From IMG/VR virus record IMGVR_UViG_3300032240_002045, positions 33,994 through 97,993 of that record: a stretch of 64,000 nucleotides of DNA; one strand, written 5' to 3'. The position numbers were made by a program, and so were the translations under genes. Below, piece by piece: positions 1,355 through 63,841 of this stretch. The notes under the pieces are model-generated. The model worked only from the letters and a program-made list of their open reading frames with translations, did no database searches and was not told where the DNA came from. The number at the start of each line of letters is the position of its first letter. Position 1 is the first letter of the stretch. This DNA comes from a virus.

Positions 1355-1512
1355 GCGTAGTCTCCCGTCTCGTCGCGACGTATCAAGACTAACATAAAAG
1401 TTAGGTTGGCGGGGGTTGTGAGATCCCCCAACTCCTGTAGCTGCATGTGCCAACTTCATGATGTAGTAACTGTGCACAGTCCTACAAGACACGATCTTGT
1501 GTCTGCCTCCCG

Positions 1513-1585
1513 CTGCCCTTCCTGGGATCGAACCAGGGACACCGCGATTAACAGTCGCGTGCTCTGCCGGCTGAGCTAAAGGGCA
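1513..1585 (-). tRNA. tRNA-Asn (anticodon GTT)
   Basis: The minus strand folds as a full cloverleaf. The 7-bp acceptor is TGCCCTT/AAGGGCA with discriminator G. The D arm is GCTC...GAGC, the anticodon stem CGCGA/TCGCG with loop CTGTTAA (anticodon GTT), and the T arm CCTGG-TTCGATC-CCAGG. CCA is not encoded. It is the only tRNA I find in the window. It lies just after a terminator hairpin and just before the small gene at 1118-1354. Confidence 0.95.
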
Positions 1586-1646: not shown

Positions 1647-2141
1647 CTACTTGATTTTTATAGTTTTTGGTTTTAGCTCTTCTGGAATTTGACGTTCTAC
1701 AGTGATAGTTAACAAGCCGTCTTTAAGATCGGCCCCCTTAACTACCATGTATTCGCCAAGTACAAATTGCTGTGTCCATAAACGTTTTGCAATGCCTTGA
1801 TGAAGAACCTCATCGGTATCTTCGTCAACTTTTTCAATACTTTTTACTTTAAGAAGGTCTTTTTCTACAGTAATTTCTACATCTTCTTTTGAATACCCCG
1901 CTAAAGCTAATTCTACTTTGTAAGTATCATCATCAACTTTTAACAAGTTATAGGGTGGAAAAGAAGACTGTTTAATGGGTAAAGTAGACCAACGATGAAT
2001 TTGATCTTGAAACCCTAAAAAGAATTGATTACTTAAAATTTCGTTTAAACTCGTTTGATTATTAACAATCTTATGAGCAAACGCTGGTGTTAATTTAGGA
2101 TTTGGGTGATCCCATTGAGGATTTGCAAGGCCTGAAGCCAT
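1647..2141 (-). CDS. Hsp20 / alpha-crystallin small heat-shock protein
   Basis: The product is 164 residues, a typical sHSP length. The alpha-crystallin domain occupies about residues 55-155: DDTYKVELALAGYSKEDVEI at its start, and the late GADLKDGLLTITVER block corresponding to the conserved A-x-x-x-n-G-v-L motif. The C-terminal PKTIKIK tail recalls the I-x-I oligomerisation motif. Such proteins are ATP-independent holdases; phage versions are known mainly from T4-like aquatic phages, where they may protect virion proteins. A strong AAGGAG precedes the ATG by 7 bases. The gene is isolated between two terminators, so it probably has its own promoter; a weak TATACT-like -10 lies near 2199-2204. 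Confidence 0.93.
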   Translation of the reverse strand: MASGLANPQWDHPNPKLTPAFAHKIVNNQTSLNEILSNQFFLGFQDQIHRWSTLPIKQSSFPPYNLLKVDDDTYKVELALAGYSKEDVEITVEKDLLKVKSIEKVDEDTDEVLHQGIAKRLWTQQFVLGEYMVVKGADLKDGLLTITVERQIPEELKPKTIKIK

Positions 2142-5433: not shown

Positions 5434-5751
5434 TCACGCTTTTTTAAGCTCTACCCATTCCTTTAAAGTTTTTCCCGCTTTTGTTGCTTTACGTTTTAAC
5501 GCGTTGCGTTCGCGGTGTGACATGCCTCCCCATATACCGTGTTGTTCATCCATCTTGTCTGCGTACAACAAGCATTGTTTACGAACAGGGCATTCAGGTA
5601 ATCCATCTTTACCGTAACACACTGCTTTAGATATCTCCGCAATTGGTTTGTACTTTGCTTTATCTCTTGGGGGATACCAAAGCTCCGTGTCTAATCCACG
5701 GCATTTAGCGTTGTATCGCCAACTTTCGACATGCTCGTTATCTTGGTACAA
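5434..5751 (-). CDS. WhiB-family Fe-S transcription regulator, atypical Cys spacing
   Basis: WhiB proteins carry a 4Fe-4S cluster on four Cys, followed by a G-[VI]-W-G-G turn and a basic DNA-contacting tail. Here, numbering from the GTG at 5757: C19 (KCRG), C47, C56 (ECPV) and C62 (QCLLYA), then HGIWGGMSHRERNALKRKA. The family usually has C-x2-C-x5-C; here the second gap is eight residues because of a GKDGLP-type insert. AGGAG overlaps the GTG but sits 5 bases before a TTG at 5751, which I prefer as the start (105 residues). It overlaps the Hjc-like gene by about 60 bases. Phage WhiB can reprogram host sigma-factor-dependent transcription. Confidence 0.92.
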   Translation of the reverse strand: MYQDNEHVESWRYNAKCRGLDTELWYPPRDKAKYKPIAEISKAVCYGKDGLPECPVRKQCLLYADKMDEQHGIWGGMSHRERNALKRKATKAGKTLKEWVELKKA

Positions 5752-6068
5752 GTACACTCCTGAAGATTCTGGCGTAGTTCCAGAAAATCATCTTCAGTAA
5801 GCACAACGTAATTTTCGTTGTTCAAACTAAAACCGAGGACGGGTGTCCGACTGTCAAGAATTGCTTCTTTAACAATCTTTTCCAAAACTGTCGCTTTGAC
5901 AGTGAAGGAAGTTTTGCCCGTCCACTTATGTTCAATAAGTAGATCGCTACTACGGACATCACCTTTACGACTCCAGAATGATCCGCTTCCAGCTGAGCGC
6001 TGTCCGCCAATCTCTTTTGCTAGTCGTACCTCGTGCTTCTTAGACTGCTTTTGTCCCTCAGTCCTCAT
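5691..6068 (-). CDS. Hjc-like Holliday junction resolvase (PD-(D/E)XK)
   Basis: The product is 125 residues from an ATG overlapping the recA end by 11 bases; a TTG nine bases earlier is an alternative. The core is that of archaeal-type/phage Hjc nucleases: KKHEVRLAKEIGG (catalytic Glu), RSAGSGSFWSRKGDVRSSD (catalytic Asp), then LLIEHKWT (E-x-K). The C-terminus is helical with a late CTCTK. It could instead be a general endonuclease of the same fold. It is the second resolvase-type enzyme in this recombination cluster. Confidence 0.8.
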   Translation of the reverse strand: MRTEGQKQSKKHEVRLAKEIGGQRSAGSGSFWSRKGDVRSSDLLIEHKWTGKTSFTVKATVLEKIVKEAILDSRTPVLGFSLNNENYVVLTEDDFLELRQNLQECTCTKITSMSKVGDTTLNAVD

Positions 6069-30882: not shown

Positions 30883-32376
30883 TTACGCCACAGTAACGGT
30901 GGTTCCACCGTCAAACTGACCAATTTTAATGATTATAAATTCAGCTGGACGCTGAAGTGCCACACCAACTTCGATATGGACTTCTCCATTGTCAATTGCT
31001 GATTGTGGGTTGTTAGTTGCATCTACTTTAACAAAGAATGCAGCCGAAGGTGTTGCGCCGGAAAGGCCGCCCTGACTCCAGAAATTTGTTAAGAAGCTAC
31101 TAACAGTTGCGTTAAGGCGGCGATACAGCGCTGCGTCGTTTGGTTCAAAAATTGCAAACTCAGTAAGGTCTGTAAGAGCTTTGCGCAAATAGATAAGTGT
31201 TCGACGTACCGGAACATACTTATCAACATATCCTGGCTTAAGTGTCTTAGATCCCATAACAACAATTCCTGAACCTGAAACATACTTGATAGCATTTACA
31301 GGTGCAGCGGATGAGTTAAGGGAGTCTAATTCAGCATTTGTAAGAACAGGCACGGATACCGCTCCAGCAAGACGTGCTTGAAGACCAGCAGGTGCTTTAA
31401 ACACTCCACGAGAAGCATCTGTTGCTGAATAAAGACCAACAACCGCGGCTCCAGCACCAAGTGTGATAGTTGCGTTTGAAGCTCCGCCTACACCGACTGT
31501 TGGGTCTGGAATAAGAATTTGTGGATAATATACAGCGGCGTAAGAAGAGGCGGTGTAAGCAGCTGAACGTGTTAGCTGGTTAGCTACTGTGTCCACCATT
31601 CCGTCAATCACAACAAAAATATCTTCACGAGATGCTGCGTATGCAATAGCGGCATTAACAGTTGTTGTATCTGTAAATCCTGGAACGTTAAGTACCAAAG
31701 ACTGTTTGATAGTATCAAATGTAGAATATGAAGTAATTGTTGAGATTGCTGAACCATTTGTACCTGTTGAAAGGGCTTGGTTTGGTGTAGCAACTGATGG
31801 GTTACGTGTAGCCCCTGTGCTTGCTGAACCAAGATCTGTCGCGGTTACGTATGAAGAACCTGTGTTAATTACAGATACAGCATAACGAGTGTTTGTTGTT
31901 GTCATTGAAAGGTCTGTAAACTTTTCAACAATATAAGCATCTGTGCTTCCGCCATAATAAATTGTGGCATCAAACAGTCCGGTTGTTGTAGAAGCGCTAA
32001 AGGTCACGTTAATTGAGTTACCCCAAGTACCCTCATTTGCGGCCGTCAATGACAATGTTGCAAGAGGTGAACCGGCAGTGTCGTTAAAACTACGTGTAGC
32101 TTTAACAGCGGAAGTTGCTACACGAGTAACATATGCCTTGTTTCCACCATTTGAAAAGAACATGTAAACAGCTAATGGAAGAGCATTAGAAGCTGTGGTA
32201 TTCCATGTTCCAAATTTTGTTGAGTAGTCACTCCAAGAAGTAACTAGTGTTGGACGTGTTGGTCCGCGATCATTAGCGCCAATAAAAGCACCAATTGAAT
32301 CTGAGTTAGGTCCAACTGTTGATTGAACAGGGTTTAACGTTTCCTGAACGTACACCCCAGGGCGTTGAAATGCCAT
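30883..32376 (-). CDS. Tail sheath protein
   Basis: The product is 497 residues, typical for sheath. The start QRPGVYVQETLNPVQSTVGP and NDRGPTRPTLVTSWSDY, the later GIVVMGSKTLKPGY and RRTLIYLRKALTDLTEFAIF, and LQRPAEFIIIKIGQF at the end are the sheath family landmarks. It polymerises around the tube and contracts on host contact. AAGGAGATAA precedes the ATG. It establishes the myovirus morphology. Confidence 0.97.
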   Translation of the reverse strand: MAFQRPGVYVQETLNPVQSTVGPNSDSIGAFIGANDRGPTRPTLVTSWSDYSTKFGTWNTTASNALPLAVYMFFSNGGNKAYVTRVATSAVKATRSFNDTAGSPLATLSLTAANEGTWGNSINVTFSASTTTGLFDATIYYGGSTDAYIVEKFTDLSMTTTNTRYAVSVINTGSSYVTATDLGSASTGATRNPSVATPNQALSTGTNGSAISTITSYSTFDTIKQSLVLNVPGFTDTTTVNAAIAYAASREDIFVVIDGMVDTVANQLTRSAAYTASSYAAVYYPQILIPDPTVGVGGASNATITLGAGAAVVGLYSATDASRGVFKAPAGLQARLAGAVSVPVLTNAELDSLNSSAAPVNAIKYVSGSGIVVMGSKTLKPGYVDKYVPVRRTLIYLRKALTDLTEFAIFEPNDAALYRRLNATVSSFLTNFWSQGGLSGATPSAAFFVKVDATNNPQSAIDNGEVHIEVGVALQRPAEFIIIKIGQFDGGTTVTVA

Positions 32377-32414: not shown

Positions 32415-33047
32415 TTAGACCGGTTGGTATCCAGAAGGGATATACGCAGTAGTAGTGTTGATTTTAACTGTAGCAACAAGTTTAGCTGAAATAGCATCAG
32501 CAACCGCCGGTGTCATTTCGCTTATTACTCTCAGTGTTAAAACGTTGCTAAGAAGTCTGCGGTTTCCCGTTTCCCCATCAACAGCGTCTCTTTTTACAAA
32601 TCCATCAAGAAATATAGAACGATAGCCTGTTTCAGTACCTAATTCGTTAGGTACAGCTAACTTTCCGTACTTTGATGGAAACTTATTCATTAACTGAAAC
32701 ATCACCGCACGATCATGGCGGGGATGACGTGTGTAAGAGGTTACTTGGTAAATTAAGTCATAAGCAACCGGTGCGTCATATGAGTATACAACCCCACTAA
32801 CCGGTGCGAGAGTTCCTCGAAAATCGTTATCTGTAAAACGACCTTGATGTTGGCGATCATTGGCTGGAACAATGTCCACAAGGTCCACAGTAATAAATGG
32901 AAAAGCCTGATCGCGAACTTCAACGTCAGGGTAGCCAAACCATACTTTAACAGAGCGGGCGGCTGATTTTTCATCAGAAACGGTAAGTCCAGCCAAATGT
33001 GTTTTAAGGGCTAGATCCTCAGCAACAATAAATGGATTACCCACCAA
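32415..33047 (-). CDS. Tail terminator / completion protein candidate
   Basis: The product is 210 residues from a GTG. VKVWFGYPDVEVRDQAFPFI, YDLIYQVTSYTRHPRHDRAV and VLTLRVISEMTPAVADAI suggest an alpha/beta tail-completion fold (gp15/gpU-type). Position immediately upstream of the sheath gene is where tail terminators lie. It overlaps the next upstream gene by 11 bases. The role is inferred from context and fold rhythm. Confidence 0.6.
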   Translation of the reverse strand: MVGNPFIVAEDLALKTHLAGLTVSDEKSAARSVKVWFGYPDVEVRDQAFPFITVDLVDIVPANDRQHQGRFTDNDFRGTLAPVSGVVYSYDAPVAYDLIYQVTSYTRHPRHDRAVMFQLMNKFPSKYGKLAVPNELGTETGYRSIFLDGFVKRDAVDGETGNRRLLSNVLTLRVISEMTPAVADAISAKLVATVKINTTTAYIPSGYQPV

Positions 33048-33589: not shown

Positions 33590-33610
33590 AAAAACCCCGC
33601 TTGCGCGGGG
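33590..33610 (-). terminator. Rho-independent terminator
   Basis: On the minus strand GGGGCGC/GCAAGCGGGG-type pairing gives a GC-rich 6-bp stem with a 4-base loop followed by five T. It lies after the 33619-33792 gene and separates the small Lys-rich gene block from the tail genes. Confidence 0.85.
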
Positions 33611-33618
33611 CTTAAGCT

Positions 33619-33792
33619 TTATTTCTTTTTGGCCGGTGTGGCTTTCTTTGGCGCATCTGATCCAAAATGGACCGTCTTAGTAACAATCTTCTTTACGGGC
33701 AAACCGGGAGAAGCCATAGGCGGCTTTGCTGCTTTGGCGGAGTTAACATTTTTGTTAACTTTATCCATAGTGCCTTTAGGAAGAGATTTCAT
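33619..33792 (-). CDS. Small Lys-rich protein
   Basis: The product is 57 residues (MKSLPKGTMDKVNKNVNSAK...), rich in Lys, Ala and Pro, ending KKATPAKKK. It starts directly after the previous stop (TAA then ATG), showing tight coupling. The strongly basic, disordered composition resembles histone-H1-like tails or phage DNA-binding internal proteins (inference). Confidence 0.65.
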   Translation of the reverse strand: MKSLPKGTMDKVNKNVNSAKAAKPPMASPGLPVKKIVTKTVHFGSDAPKKATPAKKK

Positions 33793-34011
33793 TTACTTCT
33801 TCTTAATCTTCTTTGCTAGGGCCTTGTCCATTTTCATATCTGCCTTAGCTGATGGCTTCTTCTTATCCATCTTCTTATCTTCGGCCTTGAACTTACCCTT
33901 TTGAGCTGGGGTCATGCCCTTCATAACTTTGGCATCTTGCTTCTTATCTGCTTTTTTGCACGCGCCCTTACAATTTGGCTTAGAGCAGCCACAGCCACAT
34001 GATTTACACAT
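33793..34011 (-). CDS. Cys-headed Lys-rich protein, paralogue A
   Basis: The product is 72 residues. The first 20, MCKSCGCGCSKPNCKGACKK, hold six Cys, suggesting metal binding or disulfides; the remaining 50 are an almost pure Lys/Ala/Met/Asp tail ending KKIKKK. Its head is nearly identical in protein to the gene at 34157-34321 while the DNA differs mainly at third positions, so the head is under selection. The ATG overlaps the preceding stop (TAATG). Function unknown. Confidence 0.75.
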   Translation of the reverse strand: MCKSCGCGCSKPNCKGACKKADKKQDAKVMKGMTPAQKGKFKAEDKKMDKKKPSAKADMKMDKALAKKIKKK

Positions 34012-34157
34012 TACATACCCTTTTTTCTATTCATAGAGGATTTCTTTGACATTGCAATTGCTGCCTGCTGTGCTTTTTTGGCGGGTGCCGCCTTCTTAGC
34101 TACAGCCTTTTTCATTGTCTTCTTCATGTTGCCCATGCAACCACATGTAGCGCACAT
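34011..34157 (-). CDS. Cys-headed Lys-rich protein, short variant
   Basis: The product is 48 residues. A three-Cys head (MCATCGCMGN) is followed by a Lys/Ala tail (KKTMKKAVAKKAAPAKK...). It lies between the two six-Cys paralogues and shares their layout, joined by one-base TAATG overlaps on both sides. Function unknown; DNA or capsid binding is possible. Confidence 0.7.
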   Translation of the reverse strand: MCATCGCMGNMKKTMKKAVAKKAAPAKKAQQAAIAMSKKSSMNRKKGM

Positions 34158-34321
34158 TACTTCTTCTTTCGTAGTGCAGCTAGGTCTGCTGCATCAATTT
34201 TCTTTGGGTCTCCCGCTTTTTTAGCAATTTTCTTCTGCTTTGGTGAAAGGCTCTTAGCGCCTTTCTTGCAAGCTCCGTTACAATTTGGCTTTGAACAACC
34301 GCAGCCACATGATTTGCACAT
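34157..34321 (-). CDS. Cys-headed Lys-rich protein, paralogue B
   Basis: The product is 54 residues. The head MCKSCGCGCSKPNCNGACKK differs from paralogue A at one residue of 20. The tail is basic with a helix-forming DAADLAALRKKK end. It was duplicated within the cluster; tails have diverged in length and sequence, heads have not. Function unknown. Confidence 0.75.
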   Translation of the reverse strand: MCKSCGCGCSKPNCNGACKKGAKSLSPKQKKIAKKAGDPKKIDAADLAALRKKK

Positions 34322-34322
34322 A

Positions 34323-34466
34323 TTACTTATCCTTTACCTTAGAGGGCTTAGCCTTTACTTTAGCAGGTAATTTTTTACCTGACGGGGTGTGTTCTTGCCA
34401 TTGTTTTGCCATTTGTGGGTGGTTAGCGTACATCCACCCTTTTTGAGCTTCTGATTTAAAAGGCAT
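34323..34466 (-). CDS. Small phage protein of the PFKSEAQ-W-YANHP type
   Basis: The product is 47 residues, starting MPFKSEAQKGWMYANHPQMA, a short helix motif I recognise from many small phage proteins of unknown role, followed by a Lys/Pro tail (KKLPAKVKAKPSKVK). It starts in a TAATG junction. It is part of the basic microprotein cluster. Confidence 0.72.
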   Translation of the reverse strand: MPFKSEAQKGWMYANHPQMAKQWQEHTPSGKKLPAKVKAKPSKVKDK

Positions 34467-35616: not shown

Positions 35617-36192
35617 CTAAGCTCCTCCGTAAGTTCCATCGCCGTAATAACCTTCACCATACCCAAGAGCAACAGATGAATAGCTCCAGAACTGCGGGTC
35701 ATTGACCATTTCTTCTGGCATGACCTGAATACATTCTACTGTAACAAGTGTGTATCTTTCAGCAATAATTCCGCGCTGTTGAACTCCAAATGGGCGGTAC
35801 ACCTGGTTCTTCCAAACAATACGTCCGCGAAGTTGAATTTCTGGAATTTTAAAGAACCCCGGAGAAATCTTTTCAATATCTTCAGCGTTAAGGGTTAAAT
35901 GAAGCGTATCTGAATTGTAGTAACCAACCGCGGAAGTCTTAACATCGCCTTGGCTCCAAATAGCCCTTACTACAGGGATAGTAAATGGGCCTGTCCAACG
36001 TTTTCCGCCAACCGCGCCACTAATGTCTTGACCTACATCGTAGATGGGATCCAAGACAGTATTGACTGGGTCATAGATGTACCACAGCGCATAGGTGCCG
36101 ACAGGGTTTTTTAGGTCAGTATCAACGCCTACTAGTAGGTCATCGGTTTCAAAGTCGGCATCAAAGCGACCACCGGGTGTGTAGGCTCTCAT
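35617..36192 (-). CDS. Hypothetical structural protein
   Basis: The product is 191 residues. It contains RFDADFETDDLLVGVDTDL, VWKNQVYRPFGVQQRGIIAE and a Gly/Tyr-rich end (GYGEGYYGDGTYGGA). The composition suggests a virion protein. It is in the fibre gene run and is 4-base coupled to the S74 fibre gene upstream. Function not assigned. Confidence 0.65.
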   Translation of the reverse strand: MRAYTPGGRFDADFETDDLLVGVDTDLKNPVGTYALWYIYDPVNTVLDPIYDVGQDISGAVGGKRWTGPFTIPVVRAIWSQGDVKTSAVGYYNSDTLHLTLNAEDIEKISPGFFKIPEIQLRGRIVWKNQVYRPFGVQQRGIIAERYTLVTVECIQVMPEEMVNDPQFWSYSSVALGYGEGYYGDGTYGGA

Positions 36193-46803: not shown

Positions 46804-47307
46804 TTATGTATTTTTGATGCCGTAAAGGGTAAGACTTGAATAATCCATAAAACCATTTCCGCTCAAAGTAATTGAGGTAATAGCTGCGGTGTTAGCCCAA
46901 TAGCCAGACCGCATACCCATGTAATGGCTTGTACTGTTGTTCTCCACAGCATGGTCTGCGTAAACGGATTTAAAATTTGAGGTAGCGTAGTTTGGTATAT
47001 AGATTCTTAAATATCCAAAACTGTTTGCAGTTGCAGCACCGTTTCCGGTGATCTCTCCAATATAAAAGAATGAGGTATTAGTCCAAGTATCTGAATATGC
47101 TTGTGTTGATCGAACCATGTAGTATCCAGCGGATGAACCATTAAAGGTCAATAATACGTTATCGTAAAAACCGCTACCGTTCATACGCACAGAGCACTCT
47201 AGAACAAGGTCTGTATACGTTTGAGGAATGCTATTAAATGACTGGTTTGCTGGTTGAGTGTTTCCAGTTACAGTAAGAGATTGAATTTTTGTGTATGTAT
47301 TTGGCAT
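46804..47307 (-). CDS. IPQTYTDL-module tail protein 1
   Basis: The product is 167 residues made of one module: it opens QSFNSIPQTYTDLVLECSVR and closes ITSITLSGNG...SLTLYGI. The same opening and closing strands occur in the four genes that follow upstream (to 50219). The middle segments differ, including the YYMVRSTQAY and KSVYADHAVENNST parts. It looks like a beta-sandwich adhesin unit on the tail. It is coupled by TAATG to its neighbour. Confidence 0.72.
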   Translation of the reverse strand: MPNTYTKIQSLTVTGNTQPANQSFNSIPQTYTDLVLECSVRMNGSGFYDNVLLTFNGSSAGYYMVRSTQAYSDTWTNTSFFYIGEITGNGAATANSFGYLRIYIPNYATSNFKSVYADHAVENNSTSHYMGMRSGYWANTAAITSITLSGNGFMDYSSLTLYGIKNT

Positions 47308-47822
47308 TATGCTGCTGTCACCCCATATAGCGTAAAGGTAGAACCAGCAGCTAAGTTTCCACCGTTTGCTGTTTGAACCGTGATTGAAGTTATTGCTGCG
47401 GTAGTCGCTATGGTGCTAATTTGAATTTGTACAGCAAACCCTGTCGCACCAATTGGGTAAGCGCATCGACAAAACACCTGCTTGTTTCCAGAGGTGCTGG
47501 TGTAGTTGAAAAAGTTATACTCTTCCATAGACCAGATGTTAGCGTTGCTTGTTCCAGGTATATACCCACCACGTAAAGAAATTTCCGCGGTAGCCGCTCC
47601 CGCAGCGTTTCCAGACCCCGTTCCTTGAAGATAAATCTTGCTGTATCCGCTTGAAACACCGTTTGCTCGAATCGCGGTTATGTCAGATCCGTTTGTAACA
47701 CGGGCGGACTGAATTAAAACTAAGTCTGTGTAAGTCTGAGGTATGGATGAGAATGTCACAATACCTACAGCGCTTCCTGGAGTTTGAGTTGCTATAGGGG
47801 TATAGGTTGTTTGAGCTGGCAT
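47307..47822 (-). CDS. IPQTYTDL-module tail protein 2
   Basis: The product is 171 residues, one module: VTFSSIPQTYTDLVLIQSAR at the start and ITSITVQTANGG...TFTLYGV at the end. AGGAGGGAC precedes the ATG. It is the closest relative of the 46804-47307 product in the window, and differs most in the middle, as expected of receptor-binding surfaces. Confidence 0.72.
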   Translation of the reverse strand: MPAQTTYTPIATQTPGSAVGIVTFSSIPQTYTDLVLIQSARVTNGSDITAIRANGVSSGYSKIYLQGTGSGNAAGAATAEISLRGGYIPGTSNANIWSMEEYNFFNYTSTSGNKQVFCRCAYPIGATGFAVQIQISTIATTAAITSITVQTANGGNLAAGSTFTLYGVTAA

Positions 47823-47831
47823 GTGTCCCTC

Positions 47832-49127
47832 CTACGCAATTCCATAAAGAGCTATTTGAGTAAAGTTTCCAATGTTTTGGGTTCTAGCAGTAAAAGTTAT
47901 GGAGGTAATAGGAGATAGCGACATCCACATACCAGAAGTAAATTGAACAGTACCAGTACCTACAAAATCAAATCCGTACAGCTGAAATACTGTTTTGTTC
48001 TTAGTAATTGCGGAGTAATCTTGTATTTTTAAAATAGAAACTCCAGACTGGTTTCCAGAGTTCAATGTTGCTAACACTGCGTCTGGATAGTTGCTTCGTC
48101 CAGTAGATGTGGCAGATGTTCCAGGTCCAGAAGCTGTTCCATAAAATTGGTGGAAGGTGTAGTTATTTCCAGCATCATTGTTAAAATTCATATCAATTTG
48201 AGTGGATGTACCTGTTCCAGATCGAGCAATACATCTTAACTCTAGGTGCTTATATTGTTGAGGGATGTTGTTAAATGTAAAGGTTGTAGCAGTCCCAGAG
48301 GTCACTGTGTAGGTAGCAATACTTGCATAGCTATTGAATGTTGTAATAGAGGAAGAGTTTGCCGATGCGGAAGTTCCTCTGTCATTTACACTAGATACTT
48401 GATACACATAAGAGGTGTCTACCGCTGTTGGTATAACAATAGGGCTAGAAGCTCCATATGTAGTGGACCCAGCTGGGACTGAAGTAACCGCGTAAGAAGA
48501 AGATTGATCGTTCGTTGCGGGAATAAACGCTACAGAAACAAAACCTGCTTGGTCAGTTACTGAACCAATTGTTGGTGCTACGGGAGTGCCTCCAGCGTAT
48601 TTTTGCCCAATACCGTAGATAGTAATCGTTGTATTAGGTGCCAGATTTGTCACTGTTGTAAATTTAATAGAGGTGATTGGGCGTGTATCCCTATAAAGAC
48701 CGGCTGTAAGCATCATGTAAATTGCCGCACCGTTTGTTTCCGCTCCACCACTTCCATAAGTAGATTTAAACAAGCCACTGCTGTAATTTGATATGTAAAT
48801 ATCCGTACTACCAAAAGTGTTGGCTGTTTGAACATTTGTAGAAAGGTAACCCGCTCTTACATAAGCAGCTCCTATGTCTCTGTAAGAAGCTGTTGATGAC
48901 CCGTCTCCGTACATAACGGTATTTGAGTATTGAAGCGCTCCGGGGTACGGATCATTGTTAAAAGTTACCTGTACGCCTTGCCCATTTGGGTTTGTAGCAC
49001 TAGCTTCTCTTGCGGAAATTAAAACGTATAGGTCGGTGTATCCCTGAGGTATATTATTAAATACAATTGAAGAAGCTCCGCCAGCTCCAACTGTTTGCGT
49101 GTAAATTGGTTGCATGAATACTGACAT
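47832..49127 (-). CDS. IPQ-module tail protein 3, two modules with Fn3-like linker
   Basis: The product is 431 residues starting MSVFMQPIYTQTV, placed just after the preceding stop. It has one module at the N-terminus (IVFNNIPQGYTDLYVLISAR...ITSIKFTTVT...ITIYGIG), a Fn3-like linker (TPVAPTIGSVTDQAGFVSVA to about 290), and a second module at the C-terminus (FTFNNIPQQYKHLELRCIAR...IALYGIA). It is a fusion/duplication of the unit found singly in its neighbours. Confidence 0.72.
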   Translation of the reverse strand: MSVFMQPIYTQTVGAGGASSIVFNNIPQGYTDLYVLISAREASATNPNGQGVQVTFNNDPYPGALQYSNTVMYGDGSSTASYRDIGAAYVRAGYLSTNVQTANTFGSTDIYISNYSSGLFKSTYGSGGAETNGAAIYMMLTAGLYRDTRPITSIKFTTVTNLAPNTTITIYGIGQKYAGGTPVAPTIGSVTDQAGFVSVAFIPATNDQSSSYAVTSVPAGSTTYGASSPIVIPTAVDTSYVYQVSSVNDRGTSASANSSSITTFNSYASIATYTVTSGTATTFTFNNIPQQYKHLELRCIARSGTGTSTQIDMNFNNDAGNNYTFHQFYGTASGPGTSATSTGRSNYPDAVLATLNSGNQSGVSILKIQDYSAITKNKTVFQLYGFDFVGTGTVQFTSGMWMSLSPITSITFTARTQNIGNFTQIALYGIA

Positions 49128-49128
49128 G

Positions 49129-49671
49129 TTATGAACCCGCCATTGTTGAGTTTGAAATACCGTAAAGGTCAAAACGGGAATTTTGTTTAAATGTATTTCC
49201 TGCGATTGGTGTTAAATCTATTCTTGAAATAGCAGATGTGCTTAACCAAACACTGGTCGCTAAACCTGTTTCACCGCTTCCATTGTTGTCAAATCCGCCT
49301 ATATTTTTTGTTGTTTTGTTTTTGTTTGTCATTGTGTAATCTAAAATATCTACAAGACTTGCTCCAAAACCATTATTTGCGGCAGATGTGTATAGAAATC
49401 TTTGAACAGATACATAGTTATAAGAGCCTGCGCCAAACCCTCCAGAAGCAATTGTAGAACCGTTACCCAGCATTTCATGCCGTGTATAATTAGCCCCGGT
49501 ATCCGAATTAAAATTCATAAAAATTTGACCAGGTCCTCCGGCGTCCGCATAGGAGCACTGTGCGCTTACGCGTAAATGTAAATGCGAAAACGTTTGCGGA
49601 ATACTTGAGAAAGTAACTAAAGATACTCCACCAACCGGTACCAAATAACTTGCAATAGGGTACATACTCAT
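49129..49671 (-). CDS. IPQ-module tail protein 4
   Basis: The product is 180 residues with one module: VTFSSIPQTFSHLHLRVSAQ to ISRIDLTPIAG...FDLYGIS. The start overlaps the upstream stop by 4 bases. The Tyr/Asp of the opening block are replaced by Phe/His (TFSHL), so this copy is diverged. Receptor binding is inferred. Confidence 0.7.
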   Translation of the reverse strand: MSMYPIASYLVPVGGVSLVTFSSIPQTFSHLHLRVSAQCSYADAGGPGQIFMNFNSDTGANYTRHEMLGNGSTIASGGFGAGSYNYVSVQRFLYTSAANNGFGASLVDILDYTMTNKNKTTKNIGGFDNNGSGETGLATSVWLSTSAISRIDLTPIAGNTFKQNSRFDLYGISNSTMAGS

Positions 49672-50219
49672 TGACCAATTCTCCTAACTCCGTATAAATT
49701 AAGTTGAATTGATTGTGTAAGACTGTTTCCGCCAGGGAATAGCATGTCAATTTGGCTTACTGCAGCTGTAGACCTCCAAAGAAAAGTGTTTAACTCTACA
49801 TAACCTGAGTCAATTCCATTGTTAGCAACTTTAAGAATTCCTGTTTTATGGGTAGAAGTATTTGCATAATTTATGATATGCATTTGAAAGGTTGAAGGTA
49901 ATCCTGGTTTTAAGTCAGGAGCGCTTCCAGAAATAATAGTGTTGTTACTGCTTCTACCGCTCGTGTTAGTGCCAGTACCTAAAGAAGATAATGCTGTATT
50001 GCTATAGTTACTTCCACCATCACCGTTTACACGGAACCACCAAGAAGTAGCCGTATACGCCCCACCAACAAGAACCGTACCTGTTAAAAATAAATCTTGA
50101 TAAATCCCAGGAATAGATGTTAAAGAGGTATTACTGCTTCCTGGAGGAAGAGTAACGGATGCAATAGGCACAACGGCACCTTGAGGTGCGCCCGCTGCTG
50201 AGGCTGCAAGAATTGGCAT
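49668..50219 (-). CDS. IPQ-module tail protein 5 (most diverged)
   Basis: The product is 183 residues. The opening block is TSLTSIPGIYQDLFLTGTVL and the closing one VSQIDMLFPGG...LNLYGV. Only the short IP..Y.DL and LYG(V/I) anchors remain, so homology is likely but weaker. AGGGGTAAC precedes the ATG. Confidence 0.66.
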   Translation of the reverse strand: MPILAASAAGAPQGAVVPIASVTLPPGSSNTSLTSIPGIYQDLFLTGTVLVGGAYTATSWWFRVNGDGGSNYSNTALSSLGTGTNTSGRSSNNTIISGSAPDLKPGLPSTFQMHIINYANTSTHKTGILKVANNGIDSGYVELNTFLWRSTAAVSQIDMLFPGGNSLTQSIQLNLYGVRRIGQ

Positions 50220-63064: not shown

Positions 63065-63138
63065 GTGGATACCCGTTCTGTAGAAATGTCGAGGAAAAGA
63101 CTAGCACAGAATGGTTCTCCAAATAAAATCACAGTAAA

Positions 63139-63208
63139 TGTGTATAACTTCTATGTAAATGTTAATAACATGTGGATAACTTGTCATATTAAAAAAAATA
63201 TATTTTTT
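63139..63208. other. Candidate replication origin: DnaA boxes and A/T palindrome
   Basis: The stretch is very AT rich and gene-poor, between divergent genes. TGTGGATAA at 63171-63179 is a perfect complement of the DnaA box TTATCCACA; TGTGTATAA at 63139-63147 has one mismatch. Both lie in the same orientation inside the repeat TGTG(T/G)ATAACTT, 32 bases apart. A 16-bp A/T palindrome at 63193-63208 could be an unwinding element. No candidate origin was noticed elsewhere. Confidence 0.5.
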
Positions 63209-63212
63209 ACGC

Positions 63213-63243
63213 TTGACAGGGGTTGTAAAGCCCGTGCTAAGGT
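63213..63243 (+). promoter_or_regulatory. Candidate sigma-70-type promoter for the plus-strand operon
   Basis: A consensus -35 TTGACA at 63213-63218 is followed at 19 bases by TAAGGT (63238-63243); 17-18 base spacings give GCTAAG/CTAAGG. The -10 is weak and the spacing long, so regulation is likely. It ends about 55 bases before the transglycosylase ATG. Confidence 0.45.
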
Positions 63244-63298
63244 AGTTAATGACATGGCCACCAGCAATGGTGGCTTTTGCCTACTGAGAGGAGCAGCG

Positions 63299-63841
63299 AT
63301 GCTCAATATCAGAATTAATCTAACGATTAATCTAAAAAAGGTGTTTGCGGGCGGAATGGTAGCTTTTATGTTACTGGCCCACCTAATTACACCAGCGTAT
63401 GCTTTAACAGCTGTTGTAGAGCCTGTGGGGACCGAAAAGGTTGTCACTGTGTCTCTTACACACTTAAAAGTTAGTACGACTAAGAGCCAAGCTAAGAAAG
63501 CCTTAGCTAGCCCAAGCGTAAAGTATTTTGATGCTGAAGCGCTTGCATTCCTAACTGTATATACCCAAGATTGGTCTATAGCAGAATGGAAGTGCTTACG
63601 TAACATTTGGACAAAGGAAAGCCACTTCAATCCAAAAGCGGAAAACCGATCTTCAGGTGCTTACGGTATTGCACAATTTATGCCTTCAACATGGGGCAAC
63701 TACAAGGTCACTAAGACCACTAGCGCAGCATTACAAATTAAATACGGACTACATTATATTAAGAAAAGATACGGGAGCATAAATGACACCACAGGTGCGT
63801 GCAACGCGTGGAGATTCTGGCAACAGAAGGGCTGGTATTAA
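63299..63841 (+). CDS. Secreted lytic transglycosylase (SLT-like)
   Basis: The product is 180 residues from the ATG after GAGAGGAG; the open frame extends upstream, but this start has the ribosome site. Residues 1-35 are a signal peptide: basic N-terminus, hydrophobic VFAGGMVAFMLLAHLI, and PAYA as a cleavage site. The catalytic domain has ESHFNPKAENRSSGAYGIAQ (catalytic Glu near 107) and FMPSTWGNY, then ACNAWRFWQQKGWY, the actinobacterial transglycosylase/resuscitation-like end. It cleaves peptidoglycan glycan strands outside the membrane. It may be an export-dependent endolysin or a wall-remodelling enzyme. Confidence 0.88.
   Translation: MLNIRINLTINLKKVFAGGMVAFMLLAHLITPAYALTAVVEPVGTEKVVTVSLTHLKVSTTKSQAKKALASPSVKYFDAEALAFLTVYTQDWSIAEWKCLRNIWTKESHFNPKAENRSSGAYGIAQFMPSTWGNYKVTKTTSAALQIKYGLHYIKKRYGSINDTTGACNAWRFWQQKGWY

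Follow-up and report, generated by a model that had tools for sequence, protein, structure and literature searches.

Phages of freshwater-type actinobacteria carry the same HypB-type cysteine start on different small basic bodies, which suggests that this start is an undescribed exchangeable metal-binding tag. We describe it in a cassette of tiny genes in the window, the whole stretch of 64,000 nucleotides analysed here, which covers positions 33994–97993 of a 97,993-base IMG/VR virus record.

Results

Genes and genomic position of the cassette

The cassette occupies 33619–34466 on the minus strand. A preliminary description had listed five tiny coupled genes for basic proteins of 47–72 aa, and this was confirmed. 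All five ORFs start with ATG, and at the gene junctions starts and stops abut or overlap by 1–2 bases. The order of transcription is P0005, P0001, P0003, P0002 and P0004 (Table 1). The proteins have a pI of 9.9–10.6 and contain 23–35% Lys. They had been grouped as Cys-headed, Lys-tailed proteins; the Lys-rich, basic character holds for the cluster, and the Cys head is present in only three of the five (P0001, P0003 and P0002). The two six-Cys heads and the third, three-Cys head were as first reported. P0005 matched phrog_1375 (E 3.8e-6), and matches to P0005 were found in 49 of 156 loci; it is only a neighbour of the headed genes. Homologues of P0004 occur in few loci, for example L030 (95%). 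The terminator that closes the cassette is strong.

Table 1. Features of the cassette and its flanks in the window.
Feature	Position	Strand	Description
191-aa virion-region protein	35617..36192	-	upstream bound of the cassette in relatives; synteny marker; no Pfam match
P0005	34323..34466	-	47 aa, without Cys, MPFKSEAQKGWMYANHP...; phrog_1375-like small phage protein
P0001	34157..34321	-	54 aa, six-Cys head + T1 tail (SPKQKKIAKKAGDPKKIDAADLAALRKKK)
Six-Cys head of P0001	34262..34321	-	MCKSCGCGCSKPNCNGACKK
P0003	34011..34157	-	48 aa, three-Cys head MCATCGC + AQQAAIAMSKKSSMNRKKGM tail
Three-Cys head MCATCGC of P0003	34137..34157	-	HypB-type CxxCGC core
P0002	33793..34011	-	72 aa, six-Cys head + T2 tail (DKKQDAKVMKGM...)
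Six-Cys head of P0002	33952..34011	-	MCKSCGCGCSKPNCKGACKK
P0004	33619..33792	-	57 aa, without Cys; final cassette gene
Intrinsic terminator	33592..33613	-	9-bp GC-rich stem, then T-rich; immediately downstream of the cassette
Connector/tail-sheath-stabiliser-like protein	32415..33047	-	downstream bound; T4 gp15-like, E 0.004, below cutoff
Tail sheath protein	30883..32376	-	downstream neighbour, conserved

Genes in the window are ordered terminase, portal, capsid, large fibre block, connectors, sheath, tube, tape measure and baseplate. This order is that of a contractile-tailed phage, with gene identities assigned partly from position. The closest isolates are the Streptomyces phage BRock group (53–55% identity for the terminase and 38–40% for the sheath). 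An actinobacterial host is indicated because the window contains a gene for a WhiB-like transcription factor (5434–5757, minus strand; Pfam E 9e-16) and whiB serves as an actinophage marker (PMC6802176). Elsewhere in the window, an Hsp20 chaperone gene (1647–2141, minus strand) adjoins a tRNA-Asn gene (1512–1585, minus strand). The very large fibre region encodes five similar tandem proteins of about 170–450 aa with a common 'SIPQTYTDL'-type motif (46804–50219, minus strand), and an SLT transglycosylase gene (63065–63841, plus strand) runs in the opposite direction to the structural genes.

In more than 100 related contigs, the cassette lies between the gene for the 191-aa protein and the connector and sheath genes, which supports its earlier placement inside a virion gene region. 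At least one MCxxCG gene, usually two, was present in 122 of the 123 unique clusters bounded on both sides. The usual orders are T1-T4, T1-T2 or T1-T4-T2, where T4 is the MCATCGC class. Given the synteny with capsid, sheath and connector genes, the cassette is probably expressed late, together with the virion. From gene position we infer that the proteins may be present in particles; a place in the structural module does not prove such presence, and we put virion association at roughly an even call.

MCATCGC mini-genes also occur in a second phage lineage, whose major capsid proteins (MCPs) are 22–29% identical. There they follow the major capsid gene at a distance of 0.5–2 kb, among consecutive tiny Lys-rich genes that overlap. 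At L166, L179, L205 and L257, such runs, with overlaps of 1 base, were seen downstream of an MCP-like gene; in this lineage they form a general mini-gene cassette behind the capsid gene.

Occurrence and family searches

A search for homologues, as proposed in the preliminary description, found hundreds of relatives in IMG/VR (at least 164 of P0001 and at least 363 of P0002). These relatives, together with the low dN/dS reported below, mean that the cassette ORFs are real genes and not chance ORFs. When six Cys-headed proteins were compared by tblastn with the isolate phages in INPHARED, no real match was obtained, and 84,980 species genomes of cellular organisms yielded no confirmed relative. 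This absence fits phages of uncultured bacteria. The annotated region of the BRock group has no such cassette, and the BRock record contains one match to the CxxCGC DNA pattern, no more than the reversed-pattern control.

The Cys-headed proteins had been said to match no known family. For the whole proteins this stands: searches of Pfam, PHROGs, NCBIfam and PDB sequences gave nothing above cutoffs except P0005 with phrog_1375. It does not stand for the core of the head, which is the nickel motif of HypB and gives weak HypB_prefix matches. Our literature search found no report on phage metallothionein-like or CxxCGC mini-proteins.

Selection on heads and tails

The six-Cys heads of P0001 and P0002 differ in one of 20 residues, at position 15 (N/K; N15K). 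The earlier count by eye was exact: eight of the 20 codons differ synonymously and one non-synonymously (Nei-Gojobori pS 0.67, pN 0.021). The dN/dS analysis of homologues suggested at that time was carried out here, with pairwise values pooled from 46 (P0001) and 25 (P0002) unique six-Cys genes. At 80–90% DNA identity, the heads gave dN/dS values of 0.03 (P0001) and 0.014 (P0002), and the tails 0.10 and 0.06. Overall, pooled values were about 0.03–0.05 or less for heads, whose conservation is overstated because the six-Cys set was picked by motif, and 0.06–0.20 for tails. The synonymous divergence and the tail values are independent of that choice. Thus purifying selection on the head, as first proposed, is upheld, whereas the tails have not merely diverged; they are also under purifying selection, less strict than that on the heads.

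Gene conversion within a genome was considered as the cause of the near-identical heads and found no support. Head DNA was no closer within than between genomes (9.7 vs 10.2 differences in 60; six genomes; permutation p 0.23), and constraint is therefore preferred.

The MCxxCGC core and its likeness to HypB

The core of the head is MCxxCGC, with the first Cys exactly at residue 2, a position that the preliminary description did not record. P0003 begins with MCATCGC, and P0001 and P0002 begin with MCKSCGCGC. The core is invariant in alignments A1 and A3 and near invariant in A2. The first Cys directly followed ATG in 238, GTG in three and ATT in one of the 242 unique headed relatives from the three main tail classes. 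The DNA examined contained 327 unique ORFs starting with MCxxCG; 326 of them are no longer than 100 aa, and Cys7 is present in 313 of these 326. A scan for the MCATCGC DNA pattern gave at least 131 matches; among those listed, all begin ORFs of 75 aa or less, and in 118 an upstream in-frame stop precedes any other start.

The same core forms the N-terminal nickel site of HypB. In E. coli HypB, CXXCGC binds Ni(II) through Cys2, Cys5, Cys7 and the N-terminal amine with a sub-picomolar Kd (PMC7055735). The ten-residue HypB peptide MCTTCGCGEG binds Cu, and ITC at pH 5.5 detected binding of Cu and none of Ni or Zn (PMC6848105). What the phage heads have in common with this site is MCxxCGC from residue 1, with Cys2, Cys5, Cys7 and Gly6, and strict N-terminal placement. 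They also gave matches below cutoff to the models of this nickel site, HypB_prefix_1 (NF053667) and HypB_prefix_2 (NF053668). HypB_prefix_1 aligned with P0003 from residue 1 (E 0.0064) and matched 27 of 28 relatives of the three-Cys P0003 type (best E 1.9e-4) and 10 of 35 of the P0002 type (best E 1.1e-4). All HypB_prefix scores were below the curated cutoff of 30 bits (17.8 for P0003 and 22.0 for one relative). They depend on some seven residues, and convergence or a generic CxxCG zinc motif may therefore account for the likeness. The earlier idea of a metal-type head is supported.

HypB has a GTPase domain of about 200 aa. The phage proteins (19–84 aa) lack this domain, and many have extra Cys; the cassette proteins (47–72 aa) had no Pfam match to it. 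They are therefore not HypB and at most have a common N-terminal hook. Our claim is limited to the head, which may work like the N-terminal site of HypB. The head probably binds metal.

Short metallothioneins, such as fungal Cu-thioneins and mycobacterial MymT, resemble the six-Cys head in the density of Cys over some 20 residues and in their CxC and CxxC motifs. The phage proteins differ from them in that another common head has three Cys and in that the heads are fused to a conserved basic tail. Neither the cassette proteins nor their relatives matched the metallothionein models of Pfam and NCBIfam.

Head modularity and recombination

Interchange of heads and tails, which had gone unremarked, was evident among the relatives. 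Six head types occur on several tails: six-Cys, three-Cys, CGCGKKKGxxGYGKG, long eight-Cys, MCKxCGKPxC and MCKKCGKxKCAC. The same tails occur headless, and heads also occur almost alone. Contigs L010 and L096 have identical 51-residue T2 tails (97% DNA identity) and different heads. Their upstream DNA and heads are about 60% identical and their tails and the next 600 bases 96%, which places a breakpoint at the head/tail junction. On a tree of the connector protein, head type changed at least 29 times for T1 (44 with shuffled labels) and at least 20 times for T2 (33 with shuffled labels). Because there are fewer changes than with shuffled labels, head type is inherited yet often exchanged. Exchange of whole cassettes also contributes.

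Proteins that consist of a head alone, some 33 aa long with roughly eight Cys (MCAKCGC.CKAG.P.KGCKC.CATCK), are encoded at L084:3314-3415, L101:5567-5668 and L116:2677-2778, and this long head is also fused to T2 tails (L135 and L141). ORFs of 21 aa of the MCATCGCKKSKPKPSKPKGG(K/R) type were seen at L173 (~3533) and L213 (~614), beside genes resembling cell-wall or lysis genes, in phages without the structural neighbours of the window. L176, L240, L242, L245 and others have MCxxCGC heads on non-basic tails (for example ...NQDDNYGTINPYGI... and ...VRVASGQDASIIKGFDVPPPYGKGKE), and thus the hook does not depend on a Lys-rich body.

Predicted structure of the tails

AlphaFold2 models were made with alignments built in this analysis. 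The heads of P0001 and P0002 were modelled without metal and with low confidence. The P0002 tail is predicted to be a compact three-helix domain (17–30, 35–49 and 55–71; block pLDDT 64–87, pTM 0.50). The P0001 tail is predicted to be a helix-loop-helix (27–35 and 44–53; mean pLDDT 66) with a degenerate EF-hand-like loop. Many T1 relatives hold DVDKDGKLEGSDFAAL, a canonical-looking 12-residue EF-hand loop like those of type I dockerins and EF-hands (PF00404 and PF00036). The EF-hand-type loop of T1 relatives (DVDKDGKLEGSDF) gave matches below cutoff to Dockerin_1 (E 0.002–0.004) and EF-hand_1 (E about 0.01). Unlike dockerins and EF-hands, the T1 tail has a single loop, which in P0001 of the window is two residues longer and degenerate (AGDPKKIDAADL); P0001 had no EF-hand or dockerin match in Pfam for a 12-residue DxDxDG loop.

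With Foldseek, the tail models matched nothing in the PDB. In BFVD they matched uncultured phage proteins only (best 77% identical), apart from matches of the T2 tail to T4 gp22 prohead core (scaffold) proteins that were not significant (E 1.7–7.8). The cassette proteins had no Pfam match to nucleoid-protein families (histone-like, HU or H1) and no such match in the PDB by Foldseek; a weak match to Rv3852 (E 0.023) was found in 1 of 28 relatives. The tails had been called histone-like, and these results, with the two predicted folds, speak against that label.

Discussion

We give even chances to the reading that the cassette encodes late virion-module mini-proteins of actinophages, in which a metal hook, placed N-terminally on a small basic body, acts as an exchangeable tag. 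Methionine aminopeptidase usually removes Met1 before Cys, and its action here would leave a free N-terminal Cys. A soft metal (Ni, Cu or Zn) could then be bound in a square-planar site of the HypB type, formed by this amine together with the Cys2, Cys5 and Cys7 thiolates. The six-Cys head would contribute three further thiolates, which would suffice to bind a second ion or to build a small cluster of the metallothionein kind. A Lys-rich helical tail might anchor the hook to a polyanion or to a simultaneously produced virion partner (the capsid interior, DNA or the tail connector); this anchoring is not general because some relatives have non-basic tails. Because recombination at the head/tail junction moves heads and tails between phages, the hook would behave as an exchangeable tag.

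Four other explanations were weighed. The proteins might be an intracellular metal buffer, with metallothionein-like heads that chelate Cu, Zn or Ni from the dying host late in infection and tails that solubilise them or bind RNA or DNA. The six-Cys head, with its CxCxC spacing within 20 residues, resembles short copper metallothioneins, and the head-only proteins with about eight Cys and short forms such as MCATCGCKKGKCKTKSCKCKCCK point the same way. We consider a buffer unlikely, since many heads have only three Cys and would buffer poorly, the tails are conserved at specific residues, and buffering needs neither strict placement of Cys2 nor fixed synteny with virion genes. It is quite unlikely that the heads instead stay reduced inside the cell and, after release, form disulfides that cross-link the head-tail or fibre region. 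The virion-module location and the several CxxC and CxC pairs would suit such cross-linking, but an odd thiol would be left in the three-Cys head, Cys at exactly residue 2 and the invariant Gly6 would go unexplained, and the HypB metal motif is matched exactly.

The preliminary description had proposed DNA-condensing or capsid-internal proteins. In such a role, the Lys-rich tail would bind packaged DNA and the head would oligomerise through zinc. A pI of about 10, the Lys content, the virion module and the weak fold likeness of the T2 tail to the T4 prohead core agree with this. We find it hardly probable, because the gp22 matches lack significance, T2 contains conserved acidic residues and is predicted to be folded, unlike a histone-like tail, and basic tails are missing in some relatives. 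A regulatory or host-directed role, capturing or poisoning a host metalloprotein pathway, would be in keeping with tiny, fast recombining proteins that have many head types per tail. Such a role is very improbable; the genes are in a late structural operon and not among early genes, and the very low head dN/dS disfavours an arms race.

The HypB-like metal hook as an exchangeable tag is our preferred and most economical reading. A wider form of it seems possible but doubtful: a general, so far undescribed device would be common to uncultured actinophages, a free-Cys hook (MCxxCGC) at the N terminus that is swapped intragenically among many unrelated mini-protein bodies made with the virion and gives particles or their assembly a transition-metal-dependent step. 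The hook idea can be addressed with short synthetic peptides such as CATCGCMG and CKSCGCGCSKPNCKGACKK. If the heads bind metal like HypB, these would be, as far as we know, the first mini-proteins of phages to carry a metal hook at the N terminus. They would then also clearly illustrate how recombination swaps a functional module of seven to twenty residues between tiny genes, and they would link trace metals to the assembly of virions or to the infection of aquatic actinobacteria, which are abundant.
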